From positions 1 to 37,560 of the forward strand of contig JAJQDV010000051.1 in the NCBI GenBank assembly GCA_021202015.1: a DNA stretch of 37,560 nucleotides, in the 5' to 3' direction. Below are positions 22,724 through 37,560 of the stretch, in pieces. The notes under the pieces are model-generated. The model was not told where the DNA came from. It did no database searches and was given only the letters and a program-made list of their open reading frames with translations. The position numbers were made by a program, and so were the translations under genes. Position 1 is the first letter of the stretch, and every line of letters starts with the position of its first letter. The stretch comes from Clostridiales bacterium (GTDB taxonomy: Bacteria; Bacillota; Clostridia; Lachnospirales; Lachnospiraceae).

Positions 22724-22774
22724 GAGTTTTTCTTTTTTAGTTAGCCCGCGCTAATCTTTTGCCCTTTATACTGA

Positions 22775-22802
22775 AAAGGGGCTGTAAAAAAACAGCCCCT
22801 TT
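22775..22802 (-). terminator. Terminator between the FG-GAP remnant and gdpP
   Basis: An 11-bp perfect stem AAAGGGGCTGT / ACAGCCCCTTT with a 6-base A/U loop. It follows the FG-GAP remnant on the minus strand and would insulate gdpP from it. Confidence 0.75.
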
Positions 22803-22855
22803 CATTTATCTTATGTATGATTTTCTTTGCTATCGCTCAGGTATGATTTTCTGCG

Positions 22856-23158
22856 TTACTTCCAAACGCCCGCGTATACCTCGTCCGTAGCCCTTCCGTA
22901 GGTCACGGTGGCATACGGCGTGTCCTCCGCGATGCTTTCCTGGAAGAAATAGAGGTCGCCGCGCCGCAGGGCAAGGCTGTCGCAGCCATCGCCGTCCCAG
23001 TCGCCCACGAGGATCTCATCGGTCGATTTCCCGATCGTCACCACTACGCTCGCAATCTCATCCATCAGGTTCTCCTGGAAATAGTAGACATTCCCGTATC
23101 TGCGCACCACCAGCGTGTCGATGCCGTCGCCGTCCCAGTCTCCTTCCTGAATGGACAG
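22856..23158 (-). pseudogene. 3' remnant of an FG-GAP-repeat surface protein
   Basis: About 100 codons encoding tandem FG-GAP/VCBS-type repeats: EGDWDGDGIDTLVVRRYGNVYYFQE, then VGDWDGDGCDSLALRRGDLYFFQE, with TDE(I/V)..G.W linkers, ending VYAGVWK. In clostridia such repeats form C-terminal parts of large secreted or wall-bound proteins. There is no start, signal peptide or upstream domain. Upstream, the frame runs into the inverted repeat at 23159 and meets a stop there. A GTG at 23110 could start a short peptide but has no ribosome site. I infer a truncated gene. Confidence 0.75.
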
Positions 23159-23520
23159 ACATAATGTGTATTATGTCCATGACAGGCGCCCGGAGACCGA
23201 TATACAGCTGTGAAAAACCAGAATATTCTGCGGAAATTAATGAAAAAAAGAAGCAGGGAGGCATTCTCCTTCATAAAAGAGCGCAGGTAATCTTCTCCGT
23301 CGTAAATTCCTTCCACAACGGAGTTATTTGTGTGCAGCAAAAAAAGACTTATGCGCAATCTGCATTAAGTTGTGTTGTATTCGCATATGTGATTTGTGCA
23401 AATGTATTGTTTGTTTTGCACAAATTGTGAAAATATAGATTAAAATATATTATTTTGTCACAAATATGTAAAAATATGCCAATCGTAAAGTGATTATCAT
23501 GGACATAATACACATTATGT
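23159..23520. repeat. 362-bp segment with perfect 24-bp inverted repeats: candidate invertible switch or MITE
   Basis: 23159-23182 is the exact reverse complement of 23497-23520. Each arm also contains a small palindrome (ACATAAT-gtgt-ATTATGT). The ~314-bp interior is AT-rich, unlike its flanks, and holds no convincing gene. It carries a promoter-like sequence at 23425-23453. Before the transposon at 23535 inserted, a tyrosine recombinase gene ended 14 bases from the right arm. That context fits a recombinase-controlled invertible segment; a non-autonomous MITE is the main alternative. No clear target duplication is seen. Confidence 0.7.
23425..23453 (+). promoter_or_regulatory. Promoter-like sequence inside the inverted-repeat segment
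   Basis: TTGTGA (23425-23430), 17-base spacer, TATTAT (23448-23453). As drawn it points right, away from the FG-GAP remnant. Inversion between the 24-bp repeats would turn it toward that remnant. Confidence 0.45.
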
Positions 23521-23652
23521 CCTTCCACCCTTCATGTTATCCTGCAAATTATCTTCACCCAGATTGCATGTAATCCCGGCAAAATAATTGAAGCCCCACA
23601 ATCAATTAAATTGACGTTCCCTCCGTCAGTTTCTTTGATGCTGGAGCTTTTT

Positions 23653-23776
23653 GTGTTATCATAAGCTTTGTAACATAAAGAAAGAGACAGGATCACAAGC
23701 CTGGCAGCCAATCCTGTCTCATACAACATACACCGGGCATTGCCCTGTGTAATAACAAAGCTATGATAACAGTTCC
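23653..23776 (+). promoter_or_regulatory. Nested inverted-repeat leader covering the DUF6431 start
   Basis: The outer arms are TGTTATCATA-GCTTTGT (from 23653) and its near reverse complement ending at 23770, which includes the ATG at 23763. An inner perfect 10-bp stem is GAGACAGGAT (23684-23693) / ATCCTGTCTC (23711-23720). In RNA the long fold would bury the start codon, suggesting translational restraint of transposition (inference). Confidence 0.5.
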
Positions 23777-24284
23777 CGCCAAAGATTGCAATCAGTTTTC
23801 ACAAGATTTTTACGACGAAGCAATAAAAACGCTTCAACTCCATATGGTAGAGTGCACCTGCGGCAAACGGGGATGCCTGATCCGCTACGGACATTACACG
23901 CGCAAGGTAAAGTTTATGTCCGAATTTATCTGTCTATCAGTCCAGCGGGTGCTTTGCAGGGAGTGCCATACCACCCATGCACTCCTTCCATCCCTGATCG
24001 TCCCATACTCGCAGATCCCTCTCGCAGACCAGCAGGAGATCCTGGAGGATGTCAGCAATGGGAAATCCCCAGACGCTGTCATGGAAAGGAACTATCTGAT
24101 TGATGAAAGCAATATCAAACATATCGTCCGCCAGTACCGAAAACATTGGGAACAGCGGCTAATCTCCATCGGGCTTACCCTGCTGGACACCCTGACCATC
24201 CCCTGCCTTCACGCTTATTTCCGGCAGTTCATGCAGATCCACAGAACCCGGAATATACTCTGTACCTGCACCAACACGGCATGA
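23763..24284 (+). CDS. DUF6431 zinc-ribbon protein of the transposon
   Basis: 173 residues. The N-terminal part has a zinc-ribbon pattern, CTCGKRGC (about 31-38) then VLCRECHTTHALLP (about 61-74), with RYGHYTRKV and PYSQIPL between and after. This resembles the N-terminal ribbon of ISL3/IS1595-type transposases. The C-terminal half is helical with a helix-turn-helix look (about 90-130). I recognise it as the DUF6431 type that accompanies DDE/ATPase transposons in clostridia. It may help choose target or end DNA; that is inference. No strong ribosome site precedes the ATG, which lies in a fold-back leader. Confidence 0.8.
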   Translation: MITVPAKDCNQFSQDFYDEAIKTLQLHMVECTCGKRGCLIRYGHYTRKVKFMSEFICLSVQRVLCRECHTTHALLPSLIVPYSQIPLADQQEILEDVSNGKSPDAVMERNYLIDESNIKHIVRQYRKHWEQRLISIGLTLLDTLTIPCLHAYFRQFMQIHRTRNILCTCTNTA

Positions 24285-24344
24285 CCTGACCCAGAGCCAA
24301 AAATCTGCTATGATCTCCCAAAACATACAAAGGAGGTCATGACA

Positions 24345-24794
24345 ATGACAATTCAGGACGTATTTGACAGGCTCCGCCCCATTGAAAAGGCGGCCAGGGA
24401 ACTGATCCGGGACACAGGGTTCGATCCGGATGAGGGGCTTGGTGACAAAGTGCGCCATCTCCCGGATTCGTGCGAGGATGCATTCCTGCGTGACAAGGCA
24501 GAAGGAATACTGGAATCCCTTGAGGATGTCAGCAGTGAAATCAGCTACCTGCGGAAACCCTTGCATGGGGAGCATACACTCAGGAAATTCCCCAATGGCC
24601 GCTACGGCTACACCGGCGGGAACCAGGCTGTCCGCGAATTCACCTGCGGCGACTGTCTGGAAGCAAAGATCCGCGACAGATATGGAAACCTCCGCTGGAT
24701 CACATCCAGCATCGAGCATGACGGGACGGATTACTTCCTCGTGGGATCCCTGGGCGCGCCTCTCAGCGGTCTTACGGTCAGGGAAAGGTGGTGA
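24345..24794 (+). CDS. DUF5348-like accessory protein of the transposon
   Basis: A 149-residue protein. The first half is helical (IQDVFDRLRPIEKAARELIRD..). The second half is beta-rich (FPNGRYGYTG, FTCGDCLEAKIRD, RWITSSIEHDGTDYFLVGSLGAPLSGLTVRER), matching the DUF5348 pattern as I know it. GGAGG lies 8 bases before ATG 24345; the ATG 6 bases earlier is too close. It ends 6 bases before the transposase start. The function is unknown. Its regular place next to the transposase suggests an accessory or regulatory role. Confidence 0.75.
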   Translation: MTIQDVFDRLRPIEKAARELIRDTGFDPDEGLGDKVRHLPDSCEDAFLRDKAEGILESLEDVSSEISYLRKPLHGEHTLRKFPNGRYGYTGGNQAVREFTCGDCLEAKIRDRYGNLRWITSSIEHDGTDYFLVGSLGAPLSGLTVRERW

Positions 24795-25573
24795 GGCAGC
24801 ATGACCCTGGACCAGAGACAACAGGTCGCATTATTCCGCTACAGCGTGATCTCGCCCCTTGAGACCGGGACATCCGACCCGTCCATCAGCAACAATGAAT
24901 TCTTCCGCAGGGCTGCGCAGAAAACCTATACCGGCCCGGATGGGAAAGAGACCACTGTAGGCGCATCCACCATTGAAAAATGGCACCGTGCTTACCAGCG
25001 TGGCGGTTTCCAGGCACTGTTCCCGCAGGGCCGCAGTGACGAAGGCATCAGCCGCAAGCTCACCCCGGAGATCCAGGCACAGATCCGCTTCCTGCTCGTG
25101 GAGCACCCGCGCATCACGGCTGCGGAGATCTACCGCATACTGCTGGCTGGCGGGAGCATCTGTCTGGGTCAGTTCTCTGTTTCCACGGTGGAACGTTTCG
25201 TCCGCCATATCCGGAAGGAGGAAGGATCTGCCCCGGGCAAAGACATGCGGCGGTATGAGCGCCCGCACATCAATGAAGTATGGTATGGGGACACCTGTTA
25301 CGGCCCGTATCTTTCCACACCGGAAGGGAAAAAGCGTGTGTATTTCATAGCTCTGATCGATGATGCGAGCCGCTTCATTGTGGGCGCTGACATCTTTTTC
25401 AATGATACTTATGACAATCTCATGTCCGTCATCCGTTCCGCAGTGTCAAAGTTCGGCCGCCCGAAGCTTTTCGGGTTCGACAATGGCGCCAGCTTCCGTA
25501 ATAAGCAGATGGAACTGCTTGCCGCGCGGATCGGTTCCGCCGTGCATTACTGTGAACCTTACACCCCGACCAG

Positions 25574-25668
25574 CAAATCTTATGTAAAGATATGGGTTAT
25601 GTAAAGAAATGTGTGCCCAGCCCAATGTTTTCAACGAACCGGGCTCATATTTCTTTACATAAAGTTAT
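25574..25668 (+). repeat. Left 95-bp terminal inverted repeat of the RIT element
   Basis: It contains TTATGTAAAGAAAT (25597-25610) and its inverted copy ATTTCTTTACATAA (25649-25662). Each terminus is thus itself a spaced palindrome, like paired recombinase-binding arms. The third recombinase gene ends inside it (25665). Confidence 0.9.
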
Positions 25669-26687
25669 CGCCGATTAAAGGTTTTTAACCAGTCTTTAAG
25701 ATCCGAATCAGAATCCCAGACAGCCTCTTCCTGCGGCAAAATCTCCTTGCTAGCAGCTTCTATAGCTTTGCGTTTTATTTTGGCGTCAGTTCGTGCATAG
25801 ATTTCCGTCGTTGTTACACTGGAATGCCCCAGCAGATCCCTGATATATACCAGATCCACTCCGGATGTAAGCAACTCCATTGCGGTTGTATGCCTCATTT
25901 TGTGCGCTGTCAGGTCTTCTGGTATCAGTTCTTTGTTTATGCCCCTGGCTTTTGCGCCATATTTTTTTAGCACATAGTTTATACCTTGCCGGGTAAACTG
26001 GGCATTCATGTGATTTTTAAAAAGATACTCCTCGTACTTTGTCTCTGAATCATAATGCATGTATGACAAGTAACATTTTATATGGGGGACCGCCGTTTTC
26101 ATCAATGGGACATATCTTCCTTTATTGCCTTTTCCATGGATCCGTATCGTGTATGGTTCAGTTAACGAAATATCCTTGACCTTTATATTGATCAACTCAG
26201 AAACCCGTACTCCAGTAGTATAGAGAATAAGTACCATCACATAATCTCTCAGCCCATTGGTTGCATTCACATCGATCTGGCTGACTAAAAGTTCGACCCC
26301 CTCTGTTTTCATATAAGAGATTTCTTTTTGTTCAACCTTCTTCAATGGGATCCCCAGAATCCGCTGATATTCCTCCATGTAATCAGGAAATTCATACTTC
26401 AGGTAGTGCACAAAGCCTTTCATTGCAGCCAGCCTGTAGTTGCGTGTGGCAGTGCTGTTCCCCCGTTCTTCTTCGAGCCATGTAAGGAAACCGAGTATGG
26501 ATTCCCTGCTGTAATCTTTGACAGATAAATTTTCCGGCTTTATTCCTCTGACAGATTCCATGTACTCAAGATAAAATATGAAAGCATTTCTATAGGAATC
26601 TATCGTCTGTGGGGAACTTCCGCATTCATTTGGCAGATATCTGGTAAAGTATCTGCTGAGGAGGGTTGCGAAATCAGTTGATTTCAT
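25665..26687 (-). CDS. Tyrosine recombinase, third gene of the RIT trio
   Basis: 340 residues. An N-terminal SAM-like DNA-binding domain (about 1-105) is followed by a catalytic domain. The catalytic set is Arg in TTGVRVSELI (about 160), Lys in HGKGNKGRYVP (about 193), HKMRH (about 260-264) and GHSSVTTTEIYAR (about 286-298) with the nucleophilic Tyr. All key residues are present, so this member looks active. Its start overlaps the end of the middle gene by 14 bases. Its last codon lies inside the left terminal repeat. Confidence 0.93.
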   Translation of the reverse strand: MKSTDFATLLSRYFTRYLPNECGSSPQTIDSYRNAFIFYLEYMESVRGIKPENLSVKDYSRESILGFLTWLEEERGNSTATRNYRLAAMKGFVHYLKYEFPDYMEEYQRILGIPLKKVEQKEISYMKTEGVELLVSQIDVNATNGLRDYVMVLILYTTGVRVSELINIKVKDISLTEPYTIRIHGKGNKGRYVPLMKTAVPHIKCYLSYMHYDSETKYEEYLFKNHMNAQFTRQGINYVLKKYGAKARGINKELIPEDLTAHKMRHTTAMELLTSGVDLVYIRDLLGHSSVTTTEIYARTDAKIKRKAIEAASKEILPQEEAVWDSDSDLKDWLKTFNRR

Positions 26688-27661
26688 TCAGATCACCTTC
26701 TTCCACGACACTTCCAAAGACCCTGTCCACCATCAAATGGAACTTTTCTTCAATATATGGAAACATCTGCAATGCAAGTCTTATATATTTTTCAGTGGCA
26801 AAGATTGTTTTATGGCCAAGATATGCTGACAGTATGGGAAGTGCAACGTACATATCCAGCCCGGAATCCGTCATCTGCTTAAATGAATACACCGCCATGT
26901 GATGCCTCCAGTCATGGATCCTCGGGCCATTCCCGCCGCCGATATAAGGGATTCCTGCCTGGGACAGGAACTCTCTGTGTTTCTCATAGACCGTTTTCTC
27001 ATCAAGCCTGCCGCCATTGGCATTTGTAAAAATATAGTCGTCGTCGTTTAAAAGATAGAAGCATTTATCTGCGTACGCATTGATAAGCGCAAGCAGGTCG
27101 TCACTCACCACGACATAACGCTGCCTGCCATTTTTTGTTTCATCCAGAAGTATGATCCCCTTATCAAGATCAATGTCTTTTTTCTTTATTCCAAGAGTTT
27201 CCGTTTATACGGGTACCACAGCAGTAAAGGATCCTGAACAGGACAGGGTACTGTATGGAATCCTTACGGTTTCTTGTACTATAATAGCCGTCAACGGCCA
27301 GAAAATAGTTCTCAGTTTCCGTATCTGTGTATATATGAGGCTGAAAATCAGTCCCTTTATACTTGATGTCGCGGACAACGTATACGTTATATCCTTTTAT
27401 GCTCAGATACTTTAAGAAGTGTTTGCTGGCATTGATCCTTGAATAGTGCGTAGTGTGTGACTCATTCCCCCGCTGTTCAAGCCATTTGGAAGCGTGGAAA
27501 GTAGTAAATACCGGTTCCTGGATCCCCTGTTCTGCACAAAACCGATCAAAACCTATAAGGCTCTGCCTGCAATTAGCCCCGTTAAAACCCGCAGAACTTT
27601 TATCATTTACATAGTTTTGTATTTCATCCGCAAAAACAGATTTGAACTCATACCTTGCCAT
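26674..27661 (-). pseudogene. Tyrosine recombinase, middle gene of the RIT trio, +1 frameshift
   Basis: ATG 27661 has AAGGAGGG 6 bases upstream and overlaps the first gene by 14 bases. The frame runs to CCGTRIN and then shifts. One extra base in the CC at 27201-27202 turns RIN-ETLGIKKKDIDLDKG into a short tail ending at 27170. Removing one base gives a 328-residue recombinase with Arg (GTRINET), RIHDWRHHMA and LGHKTIFATEKYIRL, i.e. all catalytic residues. The lesion is a single base, so it may be real decay or a sequence error. Confidence 0.88.
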
Positions 27662-28904
27662 GGCTGCCCTCCTTACTGTAGAATGGAGAATGGAGCGCGG
27701 GCATCGGCAATGCACACTGCTTCAGCTTGTCATGGTCGACTGATATGTAAACGCTGGTGGTTTCAGTCCTTTGATGACCCATAACAGTGCTTATGACAGG
27801 CATGGCGACATTTTTCCTGAGCAGGTTTGTCGCCAGGCTATGGCGCATTGCATGCGGCCCGTGTTTTTTATTCTGCCAGTTTTTTATACCGGCACGTTTC
27901 ATATATTTTGTCACCACTGAGTGGATCGTCGGGGAGGACAATGGCTTGCCTTTGTTTACATTTTCCATTGACACAATTATCTCAGGCACATCCGTCTCCG
28001 GCCTTGCATACTTAAGATAATCTATGATCGCATTTCCGACAGTGGATAAAAGAGGGAAATCCACTGGTACGTCTGTTTTGTGCTGGTTGAAATGAATGAC
28101 ATTGTTATCCCAGTCAATGTCACCGAAGGAAAATCTTGTGATATCTTTAGCCCTCCAGCCATACTCCGTTGCCAGCAACAGAATAAGATAATCTCTTTTG
28201 CCAATGGCCGAAGCTCTCTCAACAGAGGATATAAGCTCCTTTATTTCATCTTCTTCGTAAGTTGTAGGCAGTTTGCAGTCCTTTTTATAATTGTCTGGCA
28301 GTATAAAAACAGAAGTGTCTTTTATTGATTTCCCATTATCATAGGCGAACTGAAGGAAAAGCTTTATGTTCCTTGCGGCATTGTGCCTTGAAGCCAATGT
28401 ATAGTTCATTGATGCAAAAAAACTCTCTGTCTCCTCAATAGAAAGATCGTCAAAACCTAATCCTTTCACATTTAGATAGTTACAGAAGCTGCATAAATAC
28501 AGCCGTTTATTCTCAAGCGTTTTCTCTGCAAGTACGAGTTCATTTTTACAATAATCAAGGTATGCTAAAGCAGTTTCCCCAACGCTTCCACTAAAAATGT
28601 ACTCCACACTGCGACAGCGGAACTCAAAATCCCCATTCTTCTGGTATGAAATCAGCATTCTTACGGCACGAAGATTTTCCCGGAGTTTTACAGGCGGTCG
28701 CTTTGGCATAAGATGTGTCCCGAAAATCTCATCACAATAGCTGTTCCCAATATCTTCGTTAAACTCTGTGATTTCCTTTTGGCTTAGCCATTCCCGTAAG
28801 CAATCCCATTGTCTGGTGATCCTTACATAATAGCAGGACTCGTATTCTCTGTGTCGTAATTCTTCATCACATAATAATACGAGTTCTTCAAAATCTGTTA
28901 CCAT
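27648..28904 (-). CDS. Tyrosine recombinase, first gene of the RIT trio
   Basis: 418 residues, the longest of the three. The N-terminal ~110 residues are family-specific. A SAM-like core-binding domain (about 110-200) and a catalytic domain follow, with Arg in EYGWRAKDI (about 250), Lys in FNQHKTDVPVD, HAMRH (about 350) and GHQRTETTSVYIS (about 375-387). AAGGAGG lies upstream of the ATG. The gene begins just inside the right terminal repeat and its end overlaps the middle gene. Confidence 0.93.
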   Translation of the reverse strand: MVTDFEELVLLCDEELRHREYESCYYVRITRQWDCLREWLSQKEITEFNEDIGNSYCDEIFGTHLMPKRPPVKLRENLRAVRMLISYQKNGDFEFRCRSVEYIFSGSVGETALAYLDYCKNELVLAEKTLENKRLYLCSFCNYLNVKGLGFDDLSIEETESFFASMNYTLASRHNAARNIKLFLQFAYDNGKSIKDTSVFILPDNYKKDCKLPTTYEEDEIKELISSVERASAIGKRDYLILLLATEYGWRAKDITRFSFGDIDWDNNVIHFNQHKTDVPVDFPLLSTVGNAIIDYLKYARPETDVPEIIVSMENVNKGKPLSSPTIHSVVTKYMKRAGIKNWQNKKHGPHAMRHSLATNLLRKNVAMPVISTVMGHQRTETTSVYISVDHDKLKQCALPMPALHSPFYSKEGSHGKV

Positions 28905-28952
28905 ACATATCTACCTCCTTTTTATGGTTTCGATATACATGGTGCCATAGCC

Positions 28953-29073
28953 ATAACTTTATGTAAAGAAATATGAGCCCGGTTCGTTGAAAACATTGGG
29001 CAGGGCACATATTTCTTTACATAACCTATATCTTTACATAAGATTTGTTATGTAAAGATTACCATAACAAATC
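28953..29073 (-). repeat. Right terminal inverted repeat of the RIT element plus junction palindrome
   Basis: 28953-29047 is the inverted partner of the left terminal repeat. A 26-base tail follows, so that GATTTGTTATG (29042-29052) and CATAACAAATC (29063-29073) form a perfect 11-bp palindrome at the junction. The left end has no counterpart to this tail. Confidence 0.85.
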
Positions 29074-29538
29074 CAAGATAGAGAGATGGTTTTTGACCAT
29101 GCGTATGCAGTACCTGGCTTCGCTCGACATGAGGGATTTCCACAGCCTGGAGGAACTCCGGCAGCATTTCGCCGGTTATGTCTCTCGTTACAATCAGGCG
29201 GTTCATTCTTCCCTGGAAGGGAAAACTCCCCAGGAACGGTTCTTCTCTGAGCCGGAACAGATCCGCAGGCTCACGCCGGAACAGATCGAAACCAGCTTCC
29301 TGCTTGAGACGGAACGCCGCGTATCCGCAGACTGTGTGGTTGTCATTGACAAAACGGAATATGAAGTCCATTACCGCTACGCAAAGCAGCGCATCCGGCT
29401 TCGCTATTCCCCTGATATGGAGACGGTCTATGTTGTGGAGCCTTCCGGAGCCCTCACGCCGATCCGCCTCCTCAACAAGCAGGACAACGCTGTCGTAAAA
29501 CGTGAGCGTGTCCGCCTGAGCGGGGGAGGTGGGGAAGA

Positions 29539-30345
29539 ATGATGGATTATGCTGCACGGTACGGCCTCGAGTTCAACCCTTTTATCAGGAACACGAAAGA
29601 TATCCTGTTGGAAACAGCGGAATCCACCGAAGTCAAGACCCGGCTCGGCACACTGGAGAAAACCCAGGGGTTCGGGATCCTGACAGGGGAACCGGGGCGT
29701 GGGAAGACAACCTGCGCAAGGATATGGGCCAATACGCTGAACCCGTCCCGGTATAAAGTCTGCTATACCAGTCTTTCCAGCCTGACGGTCATGGAGTTTT
29801 ACCGGCAGACCGCCATGCTCCTCGGCGCAGATCCGAGATACAGGAAGAGCGATCTCTTCGAAGATATCCAACGGGAGATCCGGCGCTGCGCCCTTGAAAA
29901 AAGGGTCACACCGGTCATCATCATCGACGAAGCGGATAAGCTCACACATAAAGTACTCTCAGACCTGCAGATCATGTTCAATTTTGACATGGATTCCAGA
30001 GATCTTGCTATGGTCCTCCTGGTCGGGCAGCCCCGCCTGAACATGACGTTAAACCAGAACACTCACGAATCCCTCCGCCAACGGATCGTCATGAACTACC
30101 ACATGGGCGGTATTTCAAAAGAAGAAGGCCGCCGTTACATCACCGGGAAACTCGAAGGAGCCGGCTGTCGGCAGGATGTATTTGACGATAATGCAGTGGA
30201 AGCCATCCTGAACGCGGCCAACGGCACCCCGCGCATGATCAATAAGATCTGTAATCGGAGCATCATGATCGGAGCCAGCTTTAACCAAAATATCATAACT
30301 GCCGAAACGGTAGGGAAAGCAGTTGAAGACATACAGCTTGGATAA
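29539..30345 (+). CDS. ExeA/TniB-like AAA ATPase of the transposon
   Basis: 268 residues. It has Walker A GEPGRGKTT (about 49-57), Walker B VIIIDEADKL (about 125-134), a sensor-1 region LVGQPRLN and a sensor-2-like arginine in NGTPRMINKICN (about 228-239). ExeA/TnsC/TniB-type ATPases select or prime target DNA for a partner DDE transposase. It overlaps the transposase end by 4 bases (ATGA), with GGGGGAGGTGGGGAAG before it, so the two are coupled. It is intact although its partner is split. Confidence 0.9.
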   Translation: MMDYAARYGLEFNPFIRNTKDILLETAESTEVKTRLGTLEKTQGFGILTGEPGRGKTTCARIWANTLNPSRYKVCYTSLSSLTVMEFYRQTAMLLGADPRYRKSDLFEDIQREIRRCALEKRVTPVIIIDEADKLTHKVLSDLQIMFNFDMDSRDLAMVLLVGQPRLNMTLNQNTHESLRQRIVMNYHMGGISKEEGRRYITGKLEGAGCRQDVFDDNAVEAILNAANGTPRMINKICNRSIMIGASFNQNIITAETVGKAVEDIQLG

Positions 30346-30494
30346 TAATACGGAGCCGCACAGGCACAACATGTGTGGCTCTGTTTATTTGCTGAAAGAA
30401 CCCTTTTATATGTGAGCGTCACACTGTCCGGAAGCGAAATCGCCTTAAAATAATCTGCCGAAACCGCCCTCGAATAATTCGCCGGATGACACCT

Positions 30495-31477
30495 TCACAG
30501 CACCAGGCCCAGCCCTTCCAGCTGCTTCATATGCTCCTTCCCGCTCTCCAGAAGATAGATGCGGGTCGTCTCCATCGAAGAGTGCCCGAGGATATCCGCC
30601 AGCCTCTTGATATTTCCGTACTGCTCGTAAAAACTTCTCGCAAAGAGATGCCGCAGATTATGCGGGAAGCTTTTCTCTTTCGCGACGCCGGCCTCCGCGG
30701 CCAGTTTTTTATCTTAAGCCAGACAAAGCCGCGTGACAGGCATTTCCCGGTTCGGGTGATGAAGATCGGGCCGGATTTTATATTTTTCTTCTCTGCGTAC
30801 TGCAGAAGGGATACCGCCAGACTATGCGGGATCAGGATGGCGCGGGTCTTTCCTTTACAGGTGATCACTGCATCCCCTCTGTTTACCGCCTCCACGGTGA
30901 TGAACCTCAGCTCCGACACCCGGATGCCGAGCGCGCACAGAGTCTCCAGCACCAGCACCATCCGGTCCTCGCCTTTCTCTTTTGCGGTGTTGATGAGGAT
31001 CTCGTATTCCTCCCGGTCGATCTCCTTTTTCTCATCACAATACACCTTCCGCTGAACCTTCATATACTTCAGTCCGGAGAGATTTTTCCATCCGCAGGCG
31101 CCCGTCTTTTCCGGGCCGCCGGATTCGGACATATATTTCAGGAGGGCGTTGACCGCAGCGAGGGCGGCGTTGACGCTCGCCGGGGCGAGCTTTGACGCGA
31201 GGCTTGCCTTCCATTCTATGAGCAGATGCTGCGTCACAGGGCGGCCGGCAAGCCAGGTATGCAGCCCGTTCAGTGAACGTCAGTACTGGGATATGGTGTT
31301 GCGGGCGCGCTCCATCTCCCCCAGACAGACGATGCAGTGGGTGAGGATATCCGGGGTGAGGACGAGCGATTCCTGCGTGGGGATCGCTGACGTTGGGGTG
31401 AGCGTCTCCGGCACGGGAATCGTTGAAGCGGAGGTAAACGTAGGGTTTTCATTTTTGATTGTGAACGATGTTGTCAT
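30495..31477 (-). pseudogene. Tyrosine recombinase gene with nonsense and frameshift lesions
   Basis: ATG 31477 follows AAAGGAG. The frame encodes a Ser/Thr-rich start, then RARNTISQY, and an in-frame TGA at 31280-31282. It continues RSLNGLHTWLAGRPVTQHLL, with Arg in ALGIRVSELRF and Lys in ITCKGKTR. Near 30705-30710 a run of six A (seven expected) shifts the frame. The other frame then gives FPHNLRHLFAR, LADILGHSSMETTRIY with the Tyr, and a TGA stop at 30495-30497. The transposon inserted exactly at this stop, and the CCTTCA duplication preserved it. Both lesions are point events. Confidence 0.85.
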
Positions 31478-31487
31478 GAATGAATTT

Positions 31488-31537
31488 CTCCTTTCGCATT
31501 CGCTGATATACTGTCTATTTTGCACAATGCGAAGGAG
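31488..31537. repeat. Inverted repeat overlapping the recombinase ribosome site
   Basis: CTCCTTTCGCATT (31488-31500) pairs with AATGCGAAGGAG (31526-31537), one base unmatched. It covers the ribosome site of the recombinase gene on the minus strand. It could be an operator or an RNA hairpin. Confidence 0.5.
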
Positions 31538-31657
31538 AATATGAATGTAAAATCCCCCGCCGGGGTTTCACACAGATACAGCAGACGGCATTATGCCGTT
31601 TACGGTATTCGGATATGCCCCGGTGGAGGATGTTGCTTAGAATCCGTCTTTGTTCTC

Positions 31658-32092
31658 TTATTTAATCTTTTTCCGGAGCTCACGGATGTGGTCGAGCGGC
31701 TCCAGAAGATCCTCTGCGATCTGCTCTTCGGTCTGACCCGCCGCGAGCTTGCGTTCAATCTGGGAAAGCAATTTCTGCTCGGCTCCCTGATCAATGCCCT
31801 GCCGGATGCCCTCCTGGAGGCCTTCCTGGAGGCCTTCCTCCCGCACGTAATCCTCGCGGGCTTTCCGGTCGCGGACTTCCTTTAAATGCGCTTCGTAACG
31901 CAGGCGCATCCGTTTGCTCAGGCTCATCACCTTTACCTCCTGTATCGCTTCCAAAAGTCCCGGGTTCTGTGTCTTTATCATGTCCAGTTCCTCCTTTGTC
32001 TCCGCGTTGAAAAAACGGATCCAATTAGCAATCTCTGTATTATCGAGCTCCTTCATGCTGCAATCATACTTTGGCGAAATAATCTTCGTCAT
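31658..32092 (-). pseudogene. Rpn/PD-(D/E)XK transposase-type gene with internal deletion
   Basis: A 144-residue frame. It begins like full-length Rpn-family nucleases (MTKIISPKYDCSMKEL) and jumps at once to their C-terminal part (IANWIRFFNAETKEELDMIK, SLSKRMRLRYEAHLKEVRDRKA, then EGLQEGLQEGIRQG repeats). Family members are about 270-320 residues. The missing middle carries the nuclease core, so catalysis is impossible. GGAGGAGG supports ATG 32092. It is a remnant or a small regulatory derivative. Confidence 0.75.
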
Positions 32093-32211
32093 GCATTTCC
32101 TCCTCCCCGGCAGATGGAAATGCACCCATACAGATAAAACAGCATTGCTATAGGAAAAGTATAACGCATCCCCAACATACCAATCAATAGTTTTTTGAAA
32201 ATTTGTAATCC

Positions 32212-32331
32212 TGTGCAGATCGGCACAAACGTCCCCCGGACGTTTAGCACTCCGCTACGCCTACGTTTTTATGGCCTGTGCTTCACGCATTATCCGGCAC
32301 AATCTGCACACGTTATTTTGTGACAGGTCCT
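32212..32331. repeat. Structured intergenic element ending in the 20-bp dispersed repeat
   Basis: TGTGCAGAT (32212-32220) and ATCTGCACA (32302-32310) are inverted around ~80 bases holding smaller palindromes such as AACGTCC-CCC-GGACGTT. It is followed directly by GTTATTTTGTGACAGGTCCT (32312-32331), the inverted copy of 3043-3062. The rest of 32126-32594 holds only the promoter at 32435. Confidence 0.6.
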
Positions 32332-32434
32332 AAGTCTTCCGGATATCCTCCCGGATGCTGCGGATGTGTTCGCCGCGGGTAATTCTGAATAAACAGGGCA
32401 AATATCAACTACACGAAACAAACAGAATATATCC

Positions 32435-32464
32435 TTGAATAACCGCCCTGAGGCATGATATGAT
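32435..32464 (+). promoter_or_regulatory. Likely promoter of the DUF6110-ATPase pair
   Basis: TTGAAT (32435-32440), 18-base spacer, TATGAT (32459-32464), leaving a leader of about 125 bases. Confidence 0.5.
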
Positions 32465-32594
32465 ATCAGAACAACAACATGGGACTCCGGAATCTTTTAA
32501 CAGCAGCGGGAATGAACAGGAGGCAGATTCCCATTTGCAGTCCCGCGCATAAAAAGATTCGGAAGGTACATTATACAATACAGGAGGGCAGATC

Positions 32595-32900
32595 ATGAAT
32601 TCAGTATGGAAAAAAATCGGATTATTTGCGGGAGGCGTTCTGTTTGGGACTGCCGGGATTAAGCTCTTAAGCAGCAGGGACGCGAAGAAGGCCTACACGC
32701 ATACCGCGGCGGCGGTGCTCCGCGCGAAGGAATGTGTGATGACGACGGCAACAGCGATTAAGGAAAACGCGGATGACATTGTGGCGGACGCGAAGGAGAT
32801 CAACGCGGCGCGCGCGGCCCGGGAAGCCGAGGAAGAGGTGGCGGATGCTTTTGCGGAAGCGGAGGAGACAGAAGATGCTTCCGCAGAAGCGGAGGCATAG
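32595..32900 (+). CDS. DUF6110-family small membrane protein
   Basis: 101 residues. A single N-terminal TM segment (KIGLFAGGVLFGTAGIKLL, about 7-25) is followed by a charged helical tail (DAKKAYTHTAAAVLRAKECVM..) ending in Glu/Ala repeats. It matches the DUF6110 family, which I know mainly as the gene just before heavy-metal P-type ATPases. GGAGG lies 8 bases upstream. A partner or stabiliser role for the ATPase, 69 bases downstream, is inference. Confidence 0.85.
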   Translation: MNSVWKKIGLFAGGVLFGTAGIKLLSSRDAKKAYTHTAAAVLRAKECVMTTATAIKENADDIVADAKEINAARAAREAEEEVADAFAEAEETEDASAEAEA

Positions 32901-32969
32901 TGTGAAAGAAAACAGTTCTTTTATTACTGTTTATGCCGCAGGCCGAAGGGCGGCAGAATGGAGATTACG

Positions 32970-35156
32970 ATGAGATGTAAAATCATGCATGAATCCGGCG
33001 GCCGGATGCGGGTGCGCATGCTTTGTCATCACATGACGCTGCACCAGGCGGATATCCTGGAATATTATCTGCGAGCGCAGCGCGGGGTGACAGATGTGAA
33101 GGTCTATGACCGTACCTGTGACGCCGTGATCTTCTATGATACAGGTTTTCTGTGTCATAAAGCGTCTCACGGAGACGCGTCCGCTGCGTCGGATGAGAGA
33201 ACCGTTACGGCCGGGAAACAGGGGAATCCGGTTCGCGCTGACATTATCACGGCGCTTTCACGTTTCCGGTTTGAAAATAACGAGGCGCTGGTGCCGGAGC
33301 ACACGGGCCGGGAGCTCAGCCGCGAGTTTGAGGACAAACTGGTCTTCACGATCGCCGCGCGTATGGTGACGAAGTTTCTGCTCCCGCCGCCGATCCGTAT
33401 ACTGGTGACTGCGGTAAAGTCCGTTCGCTATATCGCGATGGGCATTCGCTCCCTGATGAAGCGGAGGGTCGAGGTGGCACTGCTGGATGCCACGGCGATC
33501 ACGGTTTCGATGCTGCGCGGTGATTTTGACACGGCTTCGTCCGTGATGTTCCTGCTGCGGATCGGTGAGATCCTGGAGGAGTGGACGCACAAAAAGTCTG
33601 TGGATGACCTGGCGCGCACCATGTCCCTGGGGATTGACAGGGTATGGCAGAGGGTGGACGGCCAGGAGATCCTGGTGTCTATCAGCGACATTCAGGTCGG
33701 CGATGAGATCGTCGTCCGCATGGGCAACATGATCCCGCTGGACGGCAAAGTGGTTTCCGGCGAAGTGATGGTGAATCAGGCGTCGATTACCGGAGAATCC
33801 CTGCCGGTGCGAAAGGAAGCGGGCAGTTATACTTATGCCGGTACGGTGGTTGAGGAAGGGGAGTGCGTCATCTGCGTGGACAGGGTCTCCGGCAGCGGGC
33901 GTTATGACAAGATCGTCCGCATGATCGAGGAATCCGAGAAGCTGAAATCCTCAACGGAGGACAGGGCTTCCCATCTGGCGGACCGGCTGGTTCCGTTCAG
34001 TCTCGGCGGGACGCTTCTGACCTGGGTGATCACGAGGAACGCGGCGAAGGCGCTGTCCATCCTGATGGTGGATTTCTCCTGCGCGTTAAAGCTTTCCATG
34101 CCGCTGGCGGTGCTTTCGGCGATGCGGGAGAGCAACGCGTACCATATTTCCGTCAAGGGAGGGAAGTTTCTGGAAGCGGTGTCGGAGGCGGACACCATTG
34201 TGTTTGACAAGACCGGCACGCTGACGCACGCGACTCCTTCCGTAGCGCAGGTCGTGACCTTTGACGGCAGACGGGAGAGAGATGTCCTGCGGATGGCGGC
34301 CTGCCTGGAGGAGCATTATCCGCATTCCATCGCGAAAGCGGTCGTGAACGCGGCGCAGGAACGGAATCTCCTTCACGAGGAACGGCATACGAAGGTGGAA
34401 TATGTGGTGGCGCACGGCATCTCCAGTATTGTGGACGGACAGAAGGTGGTGCTCGGCAGTTATCATTTTGTGTTTGAGGATGAAAACTGCCGGATCCCGG
34501 AGGGCGAACAGGAGAAGTTTGACGCGCTTCCGGATGCGTATTCGCATCTTTATCTGGCGGAGTCCGGTATTCTGACCGCGGTAATCTGTGTGGAGGATCC
34601 GCTTCGCGAGGAGGCGCCGGACGTGATCCGGCGGCTGAAAGGCCTCGGCATCGGAAAGGTTGTGATGATGACCGGGGATAATGAACGGACGGCGCGGGCG
34701 GTCGCCGCGGCGGTCGGCGTGGATGAGTATCACTCGGAAGTGCTGCCCGAGGACAAGGCGGGCTTTATCCGGACAGAGCATGAGGCGGGTCACCGTGTGA
34801 TTATGATCGGCGACGGTGTGAACGATTCCCCGGCGCTCTCGGAGGCGGATGTCGGGATTGCGATCTCGGATGGCGCGGCCATTGCCAGGGAAATCGCGGA
34901 TGTGACGATCTCAGCGGATGATCTGTATGCGTTGGTGACCTTAAAGAGGCTGAGCGATGCGCTGATGAACCGCATTCACGGGAACTACCGGTTTATCATC
35001 GGCTTCAATCTGATGCTGATCATTCTCGGTGTGGCGGGTGTGATGCCGCCGGCGACATCCTCGCTGCTGCATAATACTTCGACGATCGCGATCAGCTTAA
35101 AGAGCATGACGAACCTGCTGGATGCGAAGGATGATTCGCGGGCAGTTGAGATCTGA
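32970..35156 (+). CDS. Heavy-metal translocating P-type ATPase
   Basis: An inner-membrane metal pump of 728 residues. The N-terminal ~60 residues look like a degenerate metal-binding HMA-type domain without the CxxC pair. Then come TM segments, the actuator loop with TGES (about 276-279), the phosphorylated Asp413 in DKTGTLTH, and the hinge GDGVNDSPALSEADVGIA (about 614-631). The metal-site helix reads SCALK (about 369-373) in place of the usual CPC, so the transported metal cannot be assigned. GGAG lies 7 bases before ATG 32970; ATG 32958 is an alternative. Confidence 0.92.
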   Translation: MRCKIMHESGGRMRVRMLCHHMTLHQADILEYYLRAQRGVTDVKVYDRTCDAVIFYDTGFLCHKASHGDASAASDERTVTAGKQGNPVRADIITALSRFRFENNEALVPEHTGRELSREFEDKLVFTIAARMVTKFLLPPPIRILVTAVKSVRYIAMGIRSLMKRRVEVALLDATAITVSMLRGDFDTASSVMFLLRIGEILEEWTHKKSVDDLARTMSLGIDRVWQRVDGQEILVSISDIQVGDEIVVRMGNMIPLDGKVVSGEVMVNQASITGESLPVRKEAGSYTYAGTVVEEGECVICVDRVSGSGRYDKIVRMIEESEKLKSSTEDRASHLADRLVPFSLGGTLLTWVITRNAAKALSILMVDFSCALKLSMPLAVLSAMRESNAYHISVKGGKFLEAVSEADTIVFDKTGTLTHATPSVAQVVTFDGRRERDVLRMAACLEEHYPHSIAKAVVNAAQERNLLHEERHTKVEYVVAHGISSIVDGQKVVLGSYHFVFEDENCRIPEGEQEKFDALPDAYSHLYLAESGILTAVICVEDPLREEAPDVIRRLKGLGIGKVVMMTGDNERTARAVAAAVGVDEYHSEVLPEDKAGFIRTEHEAGHRVIMIGDGVNDSPALSEADVGIAISDGAAIAREIADVTISADDLYALVTLKRLSDALMNRIHGNYRFIIGFNLMLIILGVAGVMPPATSSLLHNTSTIAISLKSMTNLLDAKDDSRAVEI

Positions 35157-35174
35157 ACTTTTGCCCCTGCATAG

Positions 35175-35215
35175 AAAAAACAGCGGGCAGGAGATATTTT
35201 ATCTCCTGCCCGCTG
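35175..35215 (-). terminator. Strong terminator after rpsF-ssb-rpsR, shared with the ATPase gene
   Basis: A perfect 15-bp stem (35181-35195 / 35201-35215, CAGCGGGCAGGAGAT arm) with a 5-base loop. On the minus strand it is followed by TTTTTT. It lies between two convergent units. Confidence 0.92.
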
Positions 35216-35241
35216 CGTTCGTTCTGTTTGATGATGTCGGA

Positions 35242-35502
35242 TTACTCCGCGATATAAGGCATCAGTGCGAGATGGCGCGCTCTCTTGATCGCGGTCGTGA
35301 CGGCGCGCTGATGCTTCGCGCAGTTGCCGGTGATCCTTCTCGGAAGGATCTTGCCCCGCTCAGAGACATATCTCTTTAATTTGCTGACGTCCTTGTAGTC
35401 GATGACATTATCCTTTCCGCAGAATACGCAGACCTTTTTCCTCCTGCGGCCGCCTCTCCTTTTCATCGGAGAATCGCTTCGTCCTTCTTTATTATAAGCC
35501 AT
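35242..35502 (-). CDS. rpsR: 30S ribosomal protein S18
   Basis: 86 residues. A basic N-terminal [14 protein letters not shown] is followed by the S18 core [55 protein letters not shown] precedes the ATG. It is the last gene of rpsF-ssb-rpsR. S18 pairs with S6 on the ribosome platform. Confidence 0.98.
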
Positions 35503-35523
35503 GATTGTTTTCCTCCTGTCTGA

Positions 35524-35979
35524 TTAGTTCCAGGGCAACTCTTCATCAATCCCGTCCGGAATATTCATAAAACCGTCGCTGACGGCCTCGCTCGGCGCGG
35601 GACGGTTCTCTGCTGCCGGAGCAAAGCCCCCGGCATTCGACGCGCCGGCGTTCTTGCTCTCGCAGAACTCATGATCGTCCACGATGACGTCCGTCGTGTA
35701 GACTTTCTGCCCCTCGCGGTTCGTGTAGCTGCCGGTCTGGATCCTGCCGGTGACGGCGATCTTCATACCCTTGCGGAGATACTTCTCCGCAAACTCCGCC
35801 TGCTGGCGGAACGCGACGCAGCTGATAAAATCAGCTGTCTGCTGTCCGTCGTTCCCGTCTCTGCGTCCCCGGCGGTCAACCGCAAGCGTATATCTGGCGA
35901 TGGCCATGGTCTGGTCGTTCTGTGAATATCGGATCTCGGGATCTCTTGTCAGTCTTCCCATCAATATAACTCTGTTCAT
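35524..35979 (-). CDS. ssb: Single-stranded DNA-binding protein
   Basis: 151 residues. An OB-fold spans about 1-105 (MNRVILMGRLTRDPEIRYS, FISCVAFRQQAEFAEKYLRKGMKIAVTGRIQTGSY). A disordered Gly/Ala/Pro linker and an acidic protein-docking tip DEELPWN follow. The tip ends in Trp-Asn rather than the common Pro-Phe. It sits between rpsF and rpsR, the classic Firmicutes order. Confidence 0.97.
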   Translation of the reverse strand: MNRVILMGRLTRDPEIRYSQNDQTMAIARYTLAVDRRGRRDGNDGQQTADFISCVAFRQQAEFAEKYLRKGMKIAVTGRIQTGSYTNREGQKVYTTDVIVDDHEFCESKNAGASNAGGFAPAAENRPAPSEAVSDGFMNIPDGIDEELPWN

Positions 35980-35997
35980 CGTAACCTCTTTCCTTGT

Positions 35998-36288
35998 CTA
36001 TGCCTCGTCTCTTCTGACGATCAGGAACCGAAGTACATTGTCCATGATTCGAACGCGCTGCTCCACATCTGCCGGTGTATGGCTCGGAGCATCGAACCGG
36101 ATGAAGTAGTAGAAGCCTTCGGGCATTTTCTGAATTTCATAAGCGAGACGCTTCTTGCCCCATTCTTCCACCTCTGTCACCGTGCCCTCGAAACGCTCGA
36201 TATAGCCCTTCGCGGTTTCAACAACGGCTGCTCTGGCGTCATCATCGATTTTGGCACTGACAATCAATGCTAATTCATACTTGTTCAT
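35998..36288 (-). CDS. rpsF: 30S ribosomal protein S6
   Basis: 96 residues, with MNKYELALIVSAKID, VEEWGKKRLAYEIQKMPEGFYYFIRFDA and a C-terminal RVRIMDNVLRFLIVRRDE typical of S6. ATG 36288 has AAAGGAGG 10 bases upstream. A longer frame from 36324 runs through the ribosome site and was rejected. First gene of the operon, promoter at 36364-36392. Confidence 0.97.
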   Translation of the reverse strand: MNKYELALIVSAKIDDDARAAVVETAKGYIERFEGTVTEVEEWGKKRLAYEIQKMPEGFYYFIRFDAPSHTPADVEQRVRIMDNVLRFLIVRRDEA

Positions 36289-36315
36289 GCAAATCTTACC
36301 TCCTTTTGGTCTGAT

Positions 36316-36338
36316 GGCTCTCACGATCCTGTGAGAGC
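36316..36338 (-). promoter_or_regulatory. Hairpin in the rpsF leader
   Basis: CTCTCAC-(6 bases)-GTGAGAG forms a 7-bp stem about 35 bases before the rpsF ATG. rpsF leaders of many bacteria bind S6:S18 for autoregulation. I cannot confirm the conserved CCG-containing bulge here. Confidence 0.4.
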
Positions 36339-36363
36339 AAGGAATTGTATATCACGAAGACAT

Positions 36364-36392
36364 ATCATAGCATAATTTTCGCCCGGAGGCAA
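36364..36392 (-). promoter_or_regulatory. Promoter of rpsF-ssb-rpsR
   Basis: Minus-strand TTGCCT (36387-36392), 17-base spacer, TATGAT (36364-36369). Confidence 0.65.
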
Positions 36393-36481
36393 GAGTGTTC
36401 CTGACCTTTTCTGTGTTTTTTTGCTGCGCCGGACGCAGAAGCAGCGGTGAACTGTCCATTGTCTTTCGGCAATCAGGCAGT

Positions 36482-36670
36482 TTACCTGCCCTTTGTCAGA
36501 CCCCGCGTATTTTTCTCTACAACCGTCCGCGGCATCATGACCTGGCGTGCGCAGCCCCTGCATTTGAGACGAAAATCCGCGCCGACGCGCAGAATCTCCC
36601 ATTCAAAACTGCCGCAGGGATGCTTTTTTTTCAGTTTTACCGTATCGCCGACCTCATAGTGATATTGCAT
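36482..36670 (-). CDS. DUF951 small protein
   Basis: 62 residues, matching DUF951: YHYEVGDTVKLKKKHPCGSFEWEILRVGADFRLKCRGCARQVMMPR. The conserved Cys in HPCG and the CxxC in KCRGC suggest a small zinc- or nucleic-acid-binding beta protein, but its role is unknown. GGAGAGGG precedes the ATG. It commonly lies near rpsF-ssb-rpsR in clostridia. Confidence 0.9.
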   Translation of the reverse strand: MQYHYEVGDTVKLKKKHPCGSFEWEILRVGADFRLKCRGCARQVMMPRTVVEKNTRGLTKGR

Positions 36671-36739
36671 GTCCCTCTCCGTTCTGCCGCCTTTTGGCCG
36701 ACGGCAATGCAGGTCGAAAAAAGCGGCTTTTCACGCGGA

Positions 36740-37459
36740 TCACACCTCGATCGCGGAGAAAACCTTTCCGATGGAATCCTGGATCAGCAGATCCGCCTTG
36801 CGGTCCATGGGGGTGGAGGATTTGTTGATCAGCACCAGTTTGTTTCCTTTATAATAGTCGATCAGTCCGGCGGCGGGATAGACAGCAAGGCTGGTGCCGC
36901 CGATGATCAGCATGTCGGCCCGGCTGATGTAGCGGACGGAATCCTGTATGGTCTGTGAATCCAGCCCCTCCTCGTACAGCACCACGTCCGGCTTGATCTG
37001 TCCGCCGCAGTCGCAACGGGGAACGCCTTCGGATTCTTTGATCTGACGGGCCGTGTAGAGTTTCCCGCACTTGCGGCAGTAGTTGCGGTGGACGCTCCCG
37101 TGCAGTTCCAGCACCTCTTTGCTGCCGGCGGCCTGATGGAGTCCGTCGATGTTCTGCGTGATCACGGCCCTGAGTTTTCCGGCTGCCTCGAGCTCGGCCA
37201 GTTTGATATGGGCCGCGTTCGGCCGGGCGTCCAGCGCCAGCATTTTGTCACGGTAAAAACGGAAAAATTCTTCCGTGTGCTCCAGATAGAAAGTGTGGCT
37301 TAAGATCGTCTCCGGCGGATAATCATAGTGCTGATGGTACAGCCCGTCCACACTTCTGAAGTCCGGGATGCCGCTCTCTGTGGAAACGCCGGCTCCGCCG
37401 AAAAACACGATATTGCCGGATTCGGATATCCATTTTTTGAATTGTTCGATAGAGTTCAT
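36740..37459 (-). CDS. Sir2-type NAD-dependent protein deacylase
   Basis: 239 residues. It has the NAD-binding GAGVSTESGIPDFRS (about 23-37), the TQNIDGLHQAAGS motif (about 101-113) with catalytic HGS (about 119-121), four zinc cysteines (YCRKCGK, then RCDCGG) and GTSLAVYPAAG (about 188-198). It removes acyl groups from lysines using NAD. The Sir2 class is clear; the exact acyl specificity is not. AGGAAAGG lies upstream of the ATG. Confidence 0.95.
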   Translation of the reverse strand: MNSIEQFKKWISESGNIVFFGGAGVSTESGIPDFRSVDGLYHQHYDYPPETILSHTFYLEHTEEFFRFYRDKMLALDARPNAAHIKLAELEAAGKLRAVITQNIDGLHQAAGSKEVLELHGSVHRNYCRKCGKLYTARQIKESEGVPRCDCGGQIKPDVVLYEEGLDSQTIQDSVRYISRADMLIIGGTSLAVYPAAGLIDYYKGNKLVLINKSSTPMDRKADLLIQDSIGKVFSAIEV

Positions 37460-37486
37460 ACTTTTTTCACACCTTTCCTGTAAAAT

Positions 37487-37514
37487 ATATTATTTACTAT
37501 GAAAGTGTCGTCAA
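37487..37514 (-). promoter_or_regulatory. Possible promoter of the Sir2-DUF951 pair
   Basis: Minus-strand TTGACG (37509-37514), 16-base spacer, TAATAT (37487-37492). Nothing else is seen in 37460-37560. Confidence 0.45.
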
Positions 37515-37560
37515 TAGACAGACAGATGGGCATGCTTGCATGACCAGATGGCTGGATATT

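Follow-up and report, generated by a model that had tools for sequence, protein, structure and literature searches.

The stretch of DNA analysed here, 37,560 nucleotides of a draft Lachnospiraceae genome and hereafter called the window, very probably contains the relic of an invertible promoter switch, that is, of an inverton operated by a tyrosine recombinase and since decayed. The system is of a known kind, and the locus is a new member of it. At this locus an inverted pair of sites with matching cores surrounds a short segment; the recombinase gene of the cognate family is present as a pseudogene, with an intact relative on contig C41 of the same genome; and the complete target gene that lies downstream in C41 is absent, its 3' end alone remaining. 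Because the recombinase is not intact, we have filed the locus as a relic rather than as a working member of the inverton class. The initial annotation had recognized in the recombinase, the repeat-bounded segment and the surface gene the plan of a phase-variation inverton. This reading is supported, as the plan is complete both in C41 and in a locus of a related species (contig C191 of genome G003) and recurs frequently among the recombinase's relatives.

Sites and neighbouring genes in the window

The locus is delimited by a perfect inverted repeat around an interior of 314 nt, as had been described, with arms of 25 nt where 24 bp had been reported (Table 1). Under relaxed matching the repeat measures 31 nt at 94%. 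It is the longest perfect inverted repeat in the window with a loop of 50-1000 nt, and 30 dinucleotide-preserving shuffles yielded repeats of 11-14 nt. Each arm holds a palindromic 20-mer, GACATAAT-N4-ATTATGTC, whose 4-nt centre is asymmetric, reading GTGT in one arm and the complement ACAC in the other, and the two spacers are thus matched. The 324 nt between these 20-nt core sites have a GC content of 35%.

Table 1. Features of the switch locus, in positions of the window
Feature	Position	Strand	Remarks
Surface-protein-like gene, 3' remnant	22856-23143	-	about 95 codons, FG-GAP-like tail; from Pfam and from similarity to C41 and C42
Left inverted repeat, gene side	23158-23182	+	core site GACATAAT-GTGT-ATTATGTC at 23158-23177
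Candidate invertible segment	23183-23496		AT-rich, 314 nt; similarity to other segments weak and contradictory
Promoter-like TTGTGA-17-TATTAT	23425-23453	+	candidate of the initial annotation; points away from the gene remnant
Promoter-like TTTACA-17-TATATT	23444-23472	-	rival site; points toward the gene remnant; scan score slightly higher
Right inverted repeat, recombinase side	23497-23521	-	core site at 23502-23521; complements the left arm perfectly
DDE transposon	23535-30491		DUF6431 protein, rve transposase, AAA ATPase; separates recombinase from right repeat
Second element, nested in the transposase gene	25574-29047	-	tyrosine recombinases in tandem, bounded by 98-nt inverted repeats (96%)
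Tyrosine recombinase pseudogene, invertase family	30498-31336	-	one TGA and one frame change

Being short, AT-rich and closed by perfect terminal inverted repeats, the element could be taken for a MITE or another small transposable element whose repeats came to lie near a recombinase by accident, which was the main alternative in the initial annotation. A search for the dispersed copies that such an origin predicts returned none. The element occurs as a single copy in its genome, which argues against a dispersed MITE, and of 20 genus genomes two contain its arm when two mismatches are allowed, namely the window's own (G000) and G007. Furthermore, no direct duplication was seen by eye outside the arms, and the arms are internally palindromic with a matched asymmetric spacer, a type of pair that tracks one recombinase family. 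We therefore regard a transposable element as a very improbable source of the repeats. A phage attachment site was also considered and set aside: viral contigs yielded a single exact 20-mer, situated among tRNA genes on a phage-like contig without a second site, and it was taken as a chance match.

The recombinase gene beside the switch matches its family over 30501-31336, split between two frames. In the sequence as assembled, both of the lesions reported earlier were found again, one a TGA within 30704-31336 and the other a shift of frame close to 30704-30710; the latter could stem from misassembly, the source genome being a draft of 73 contigs. The frame ends in LGLVL-stop at 30498, and when the transposon and one copy of its flanking duplication are discounted this stop lies 14 nt from the repeat, exactly as had been proposed. 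A readable piece of 175 aa has best matches that are 40-48% identical, the closest of them in G008 (48%), and is 43% identical to the recombinase of C41.

The ends of the intervening transposon, TGTTATCC... and ...GGATGACA, were recognized by eye, as was the 6-bp duplication CCTTCA that flanks it at 23529-23534 and 30492-30497. Its transposase gene is split by the second element, whose tandem tyrosine recombinases occupy 25665-28904. We take this nested element to resemble a recombinase-in-trio (RIT) element in which the middle recombinase is split. The arrangement is thus one of an element within an element, beside a switch that is apparently dead.

On the opposite side of the segment, the remnant of a surface-protein-like gene ends its frame 14 nt outside the left core site. 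The initial annotation had placed an FG-GAP surface-protein frame against the left repeat; the position stands, while the assignment to FG-GAP is weaker, the match to Pfam FG-GAP_3 (E 4.4e-5, 24.4 bits) being under the cut-off of 26.9. The 95 aa of the remnant align with the extreme C-terminus of the 1493-aa protein of C41 (48%, E 9e-27), a protein in which Pfam returned no FG-GAP match. At the DNA level, and among the matches listed, a gene on contig C42 has a 3' end that agrees with the remnant at 97% across 296 bases.

Since gdpP lies downstream on the same strand, we considered whether gdpP-rplI-dnaB had been captured by it. This is disfavoured, as a promoter-like site before gdpP is conserved in the three relatives aligned and as the remnant and gdpP are separated by a hairpin, albeit one flagged as terminator-like on the plus strand only. 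The gene order around gdpP (22755-37560 in the window) varies among genomes. In the window, the block Sir2-rpsF-ssb-rpsR is oriented toward gdpP and separated from it by the switch and by HMA and P-type ATPase genes; the block also reads toward gdpP in G019 and G002, and it faces away from gdpP in G004, G008 and G009 and, as far as the stretches reach, in G005, G013, G017 and G018. A sulfatase/LTA-synthase-like gene adjoins gdpP in G003, G004 and G008, and in the window's genome it is found at the start of contig C44. A gene-order breakpoint lies between gdpP and the switch.

Sister locus and recombinase family

The locus on C41 was found by searching the genome for the site with two mismatches allowed. 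Along one strand it presents an intact recombinase of 345 aa, 62-nt arms 319 nt apart and the protein of 1493 aa. Both C41 and the window have the core CATAATACACATTATGT with the same 4-nt spacer, and the C41 sites carry CTCATAAT and AACATAAT at one end instead of GACATAAT. The C41 ortholog in G003 (C191) has a recombinase 80% identical to that of C41, 18-nt arms 297 nt apart and a surface protein whose start is, by eye, similar to that of C41. In G007 a site lies upstream of lipoprotein-like genes at two loci, on contigs that each stop about 230 nt beyond it.

The C41 arms (L031, 5859-5920 and 6240-6334) carry 39-nt units, each of which includes a variant site together with a small hairpin. 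There is one such unit next to the gene and there are two next to the recombinase, which would be consistent with a duplication of sites. In the window, the spacer on the gene side (GTGT) has the opposite polarity to that of C41, of its G003 ortholog and of both G007 loci: the recombinase-side spacer is GTGT in the window, ACAC in C41 and GCAC in G003, and the two G007 loci imply a C41-like polarity. As no clear polarity rule emerged across the 43 loci with matched pairs, we draw nothing from the flipped polarity of the window.

Matches to the C41 recombinase at E 1e-12 or better were obtained in 15 of the 20 genus genomes. Besides the gene in the window, the genus holds 26 related recombinase genes, and a site-like inverted pair begins 0-140 nt past the stop in 14. 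The other 12 comprise two at a contig edge, one that is truncated (G003 C48) and nine that are distant (26-33% identity), some of the last with repeats of another kind. The residues R-K-HxxR-H-Y are invariant in 12 relatives, and a 12-member profile matches at least 81 of 299 genomes, with up to eight candidates scored per genome.

To this survey we added a reading of 90 loci, 30 fetched by profile search and 60 hand-picked from its list, ten of the latter forming a low-scoring outgroup. The 80 main loci include C41, and those with at least 500 nt of flank were testable, 66 of them downstream and 77 upstream. A matched pair of motif sites with complementary spacers was found downstream in 43/66 loci, C41 among them, and upstream in 1/77, and in none of the 10 outgroup loci on either side; by the criteria used, 23 of the 66 have no motif pair. 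The count of 43 selects for complementary spacers. When this selection was dropped, the first motif pair, with at most one mismatch per site, was complementary in all 38 of 38 loci. Spacers differ between loci while matching within a pair, as expected of an exchange core. A contig end lies within 500 nt of the recombinase on the downstream side in 14 of the 80 loci, compared with 3 of the 80 on the upstream side. Such an excess is as expected if two orientations or repeats confuse the assembler, and other causes are possible.

Two of the alternatives are best weighed against this pattern. The first is that the repeats are sites of the housekeeping XerC/XerD-dif system, or of a dif-module, and that the nearby recombinase is coincidental. 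In the Xer/dif system, palindromic CATAA/TTATG arms flank a central spacer, and a single site per chromosome is acted on by XerC together with XerD. The likeness extends to the arms, where the CATAA-N6-TTATG geometry matches the inner part of dif, and to the enzymes, which are Xer-like, the best NCBIfam model being of XerA type with 115 bits under a cut-off of 220. The window differs in its two inverted sites, its locus-specific spacer and its dedicated recombinase. A housekeeping role also accords poorly with inverted pairs bearing locus-specific spacers beside one recombinase family at 43 of 66 testable loci, so that we hold it to be highly unlikely. A Firmicutes dif consensus, applied with three mismatches, had no match in the window's genome, a result that does not bear on where dif lies.

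The second is a functionless inverted duplication that lies near a recombinase by chance. This would agree with the contradictory similarities of the window's segment, set out below, and with the single orientation in which the locus is known. It leaves the length of the repeat relative to shuffles, the complete locus in C41 and the family-wide pattern as coincidences, and we give it next to no weight. A decayed member of a switch family is the reading that we retain.

The family offers several further observations. A second decayed switch appears at L064 2811-5000 (JAJBVI010000217.1), a contig of a Lachnospiraceae metagenome-assembled genome and the one relative given by a scan of genome contigs with the C41 recombinase. 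Its recombinase frame ends after 196 aa, and no inverted pair of the motif type was found before its lipoprotein-like gene, which by eye resembles the genes behind the G007 sites. The loci L067, L068 and L070, from three species of the genus, place a switch before a NusG-like gene (identified with Pfam for L067); in L068 and L070 polysaccharide-type genes then follow, judged by eye, as in a capsule-type locus. At least seven to eight matches to the invertase profile, with up to eight scored per genome, were obtained in each of G048, G065, G067, G168 and G271. The spacers tabulated, which cover some of these genomes, are distinct within any one genome, the exception being those of the window and C41 in G000. 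No description of this Lachnospiraceae recombinase family was found in the titles, abstract openings and term counts of the papers listed, a search that most subscription journals lay outside.

Segment orientation and the working of the switch

If the loci of this family are switches, their segments should be encountered in both orientations. We compared 51 segments, one genome per species, in 1225 of the 1275 possible pairs, leaving out pairs with an N-containing segment. Significant likeness was found in 31 pairs, 25 in the same orientation and six in the opposite one. Tested against 1000 dinucleotide shuffles each, the scores of five opposite pairs were never reached and that of the sixth was reached six times. 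Four opposite-pair scores, 92, 74, 65 and 64, stand clear of the control maxima of 50-52, and some of the weakest opposite pairs may be due to chance, given that 1225 pairs of AT-rich segments were compared. A stretch with the promoter-like sequence TTGACT-17-GATAAT illustrates the pattern: it is forward in G012, where it points to a NusG-like gene (Pfam); in G009 and G005, whose next genes are alike by eye, it is reversed (0/1000 shuffles each), as it is in G013, before a different next gene (3/1000). As judged by these alignments, segments of the family occur both ways round, between species or between loci.

The segment of the window itself gives a contradictory picture. It aligns with that of C41 in the forward direction (score 51, reached by 1 of 1000 dinucleotide shuffles), and with those of G003 C191 (score 47) and L107 (score 54) in reverse, neither reached in 1000 shuffles. 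Because the C41 and G003 C191 segments agree with each other (score 139), at least one of the window's alignments must mislead. An assignment of the present state as OFF, made from the forward C41 alignment, was dropped, as the segment aligns reversed with G003 C191 and L107.

The claim of one good promoter within the segment could not be upheld from sequence. A promoter scan of 23100-23600 returned four promoter-like sites, two per strand, where 1.6 are expected, and the best score in the segment, 7.3, is below the 95% shuffle value of 7.5. Among 15 segments, 14 from the genus and that of the window, the best score exceeded the 95% value of 40 shuffles in eight. In the one forward alignment, TTGTGA-17-TATTAT of the window stands opposite TTGTGA-17-TATAAT of C41. 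In the reading retained here, the window's segment would have inverted in the past and a promoter would lie inside it.

Tyrosine recombinases in general act as pairs of protomers bound to the arms of each site; strand exchange takes place in the centre, and it requires the centres to match. In the proposed mechanism, the recombinase encoded just upstream would bind the palindromic arms ACATAAT/ATTATGT of both sites, and strands would be exchanged in the short centre, GTGT/ACAC, which is equal in both. The segment of about 314 nt would thereby invert together with the promoter inside it, and the promoter would then face the surface-protein gene downstream or, in the other orientation, the recombinase. 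Decay would have followed as the recombinase became a pseudogene, a transposon landed between the recombinase and the switch, and the surface gene was lost down to its 3' end.

With its enzyme gene broken and its target lost, the switch is probably locked now. The genome does, however, also encode an intact recombinase associated with an identical site core, that of C41, and the relic may still be flipped in trans by this enzyme. It would then persist as an active satellite switch and could take part in C6-C41 rearrangements; we consider this conceivable, if on balance unlikely. The C41 gene is the only other match to the invertase profile above 80 bits in the window's genome, and together with the shared core this makes action in trans possible. 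The two loci, identical in CATAATACACATTATGT and its spacer, are the sole pair sharing a spacer among the 25 same-genome locus pairs tabulated. A precedent is offered by RecV of Clostridioides difficile, described as acting on several switches distant from its gene (PMC5903667). On the other hand, the C41 arms are longer, with the extra 39-nt units and with CTCATAAT/AACATAAT at one end, so that the core alone may not suffice for the C41 enzyme; the recombinase of the window is a distant relative of that enzyme (43%); and the spacer could be shared through common ancestry, or because one locus descends from the other.

A more general form of this idea, and one we advance still more tentatively, is that the arms of the sites serve as a common currency and the spacer as a private address by which the switches of a genome are held separate, with the window, whose spacer is that of C41, as the exception. 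The orphan switch of the window might then be driven, and perhaps synchronised, by the C41 recombinase, and the pair might be able to rearrange the stretch of chromosome that separates them. A decayed and probably locked switch remains our preferred reading of the locus.

These findings bear on how such switches can be recognized. From sequence alone, one recombinase family can be tied to a site, ACAKAAT-N4-ATTMTGT, that lies just past the recombinase stop and whose spacer is matched within each pair. Invertons are usually found by reads in both orientations, and locked or dying ones are therefore missed. A recognisable site past the stop would allow a simple listing of switches across the Lachnospiraceae; this would show how switches die and would open to experiment the question whether an enzyme's choice of switch depends on the spacer.

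Relation to known systems

One comparison is with the intact loci of C41 and G003 C191. These share with the window the site core, which is identical in C41, the recombinase family and the gene order; C41 also shares the tail of the surface protein. They differ from it in having an intact recombinase and target, in the expanded arms of C41, and in a segment that resembles that of the window weakly and inconsistently.

Invertible promoters of gut bacteria have reportedly been described by Jiang et al. Invertons that depend on a tyrosine recombinase are a well-known kind of system (PMC11892184, PMC11868660, PMC5903667, PMC7096588). Those of gut bacteria are described as having inverted repeats of 10-40 nt around a short segment that is often intergenic and near surface-related genes, with the invertase often close by (PMC11892184). 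As far as that account goes, the window has the same layout of repeat, segment, surface gene and invertase, and it differs in that its invertase and target are broken and that it is known from its sequence alone.

In C. difficile, RecV and the Cdi1-Cdi7 switches likewise combine a tyrosine recombinase with short segments bounded by terminal inverted repeats, one recombinase serving several of them (PMC5903667). For strain R20291, the same source names only Cdi7 as having a recombinase in its vicinity (PMC5903667). Relative to the C. difficile switches as described there, the family to which this locus belongs keeps recombinase gene and sites close together, its sites usually beginning within about 140 nt of the recombinase stop.
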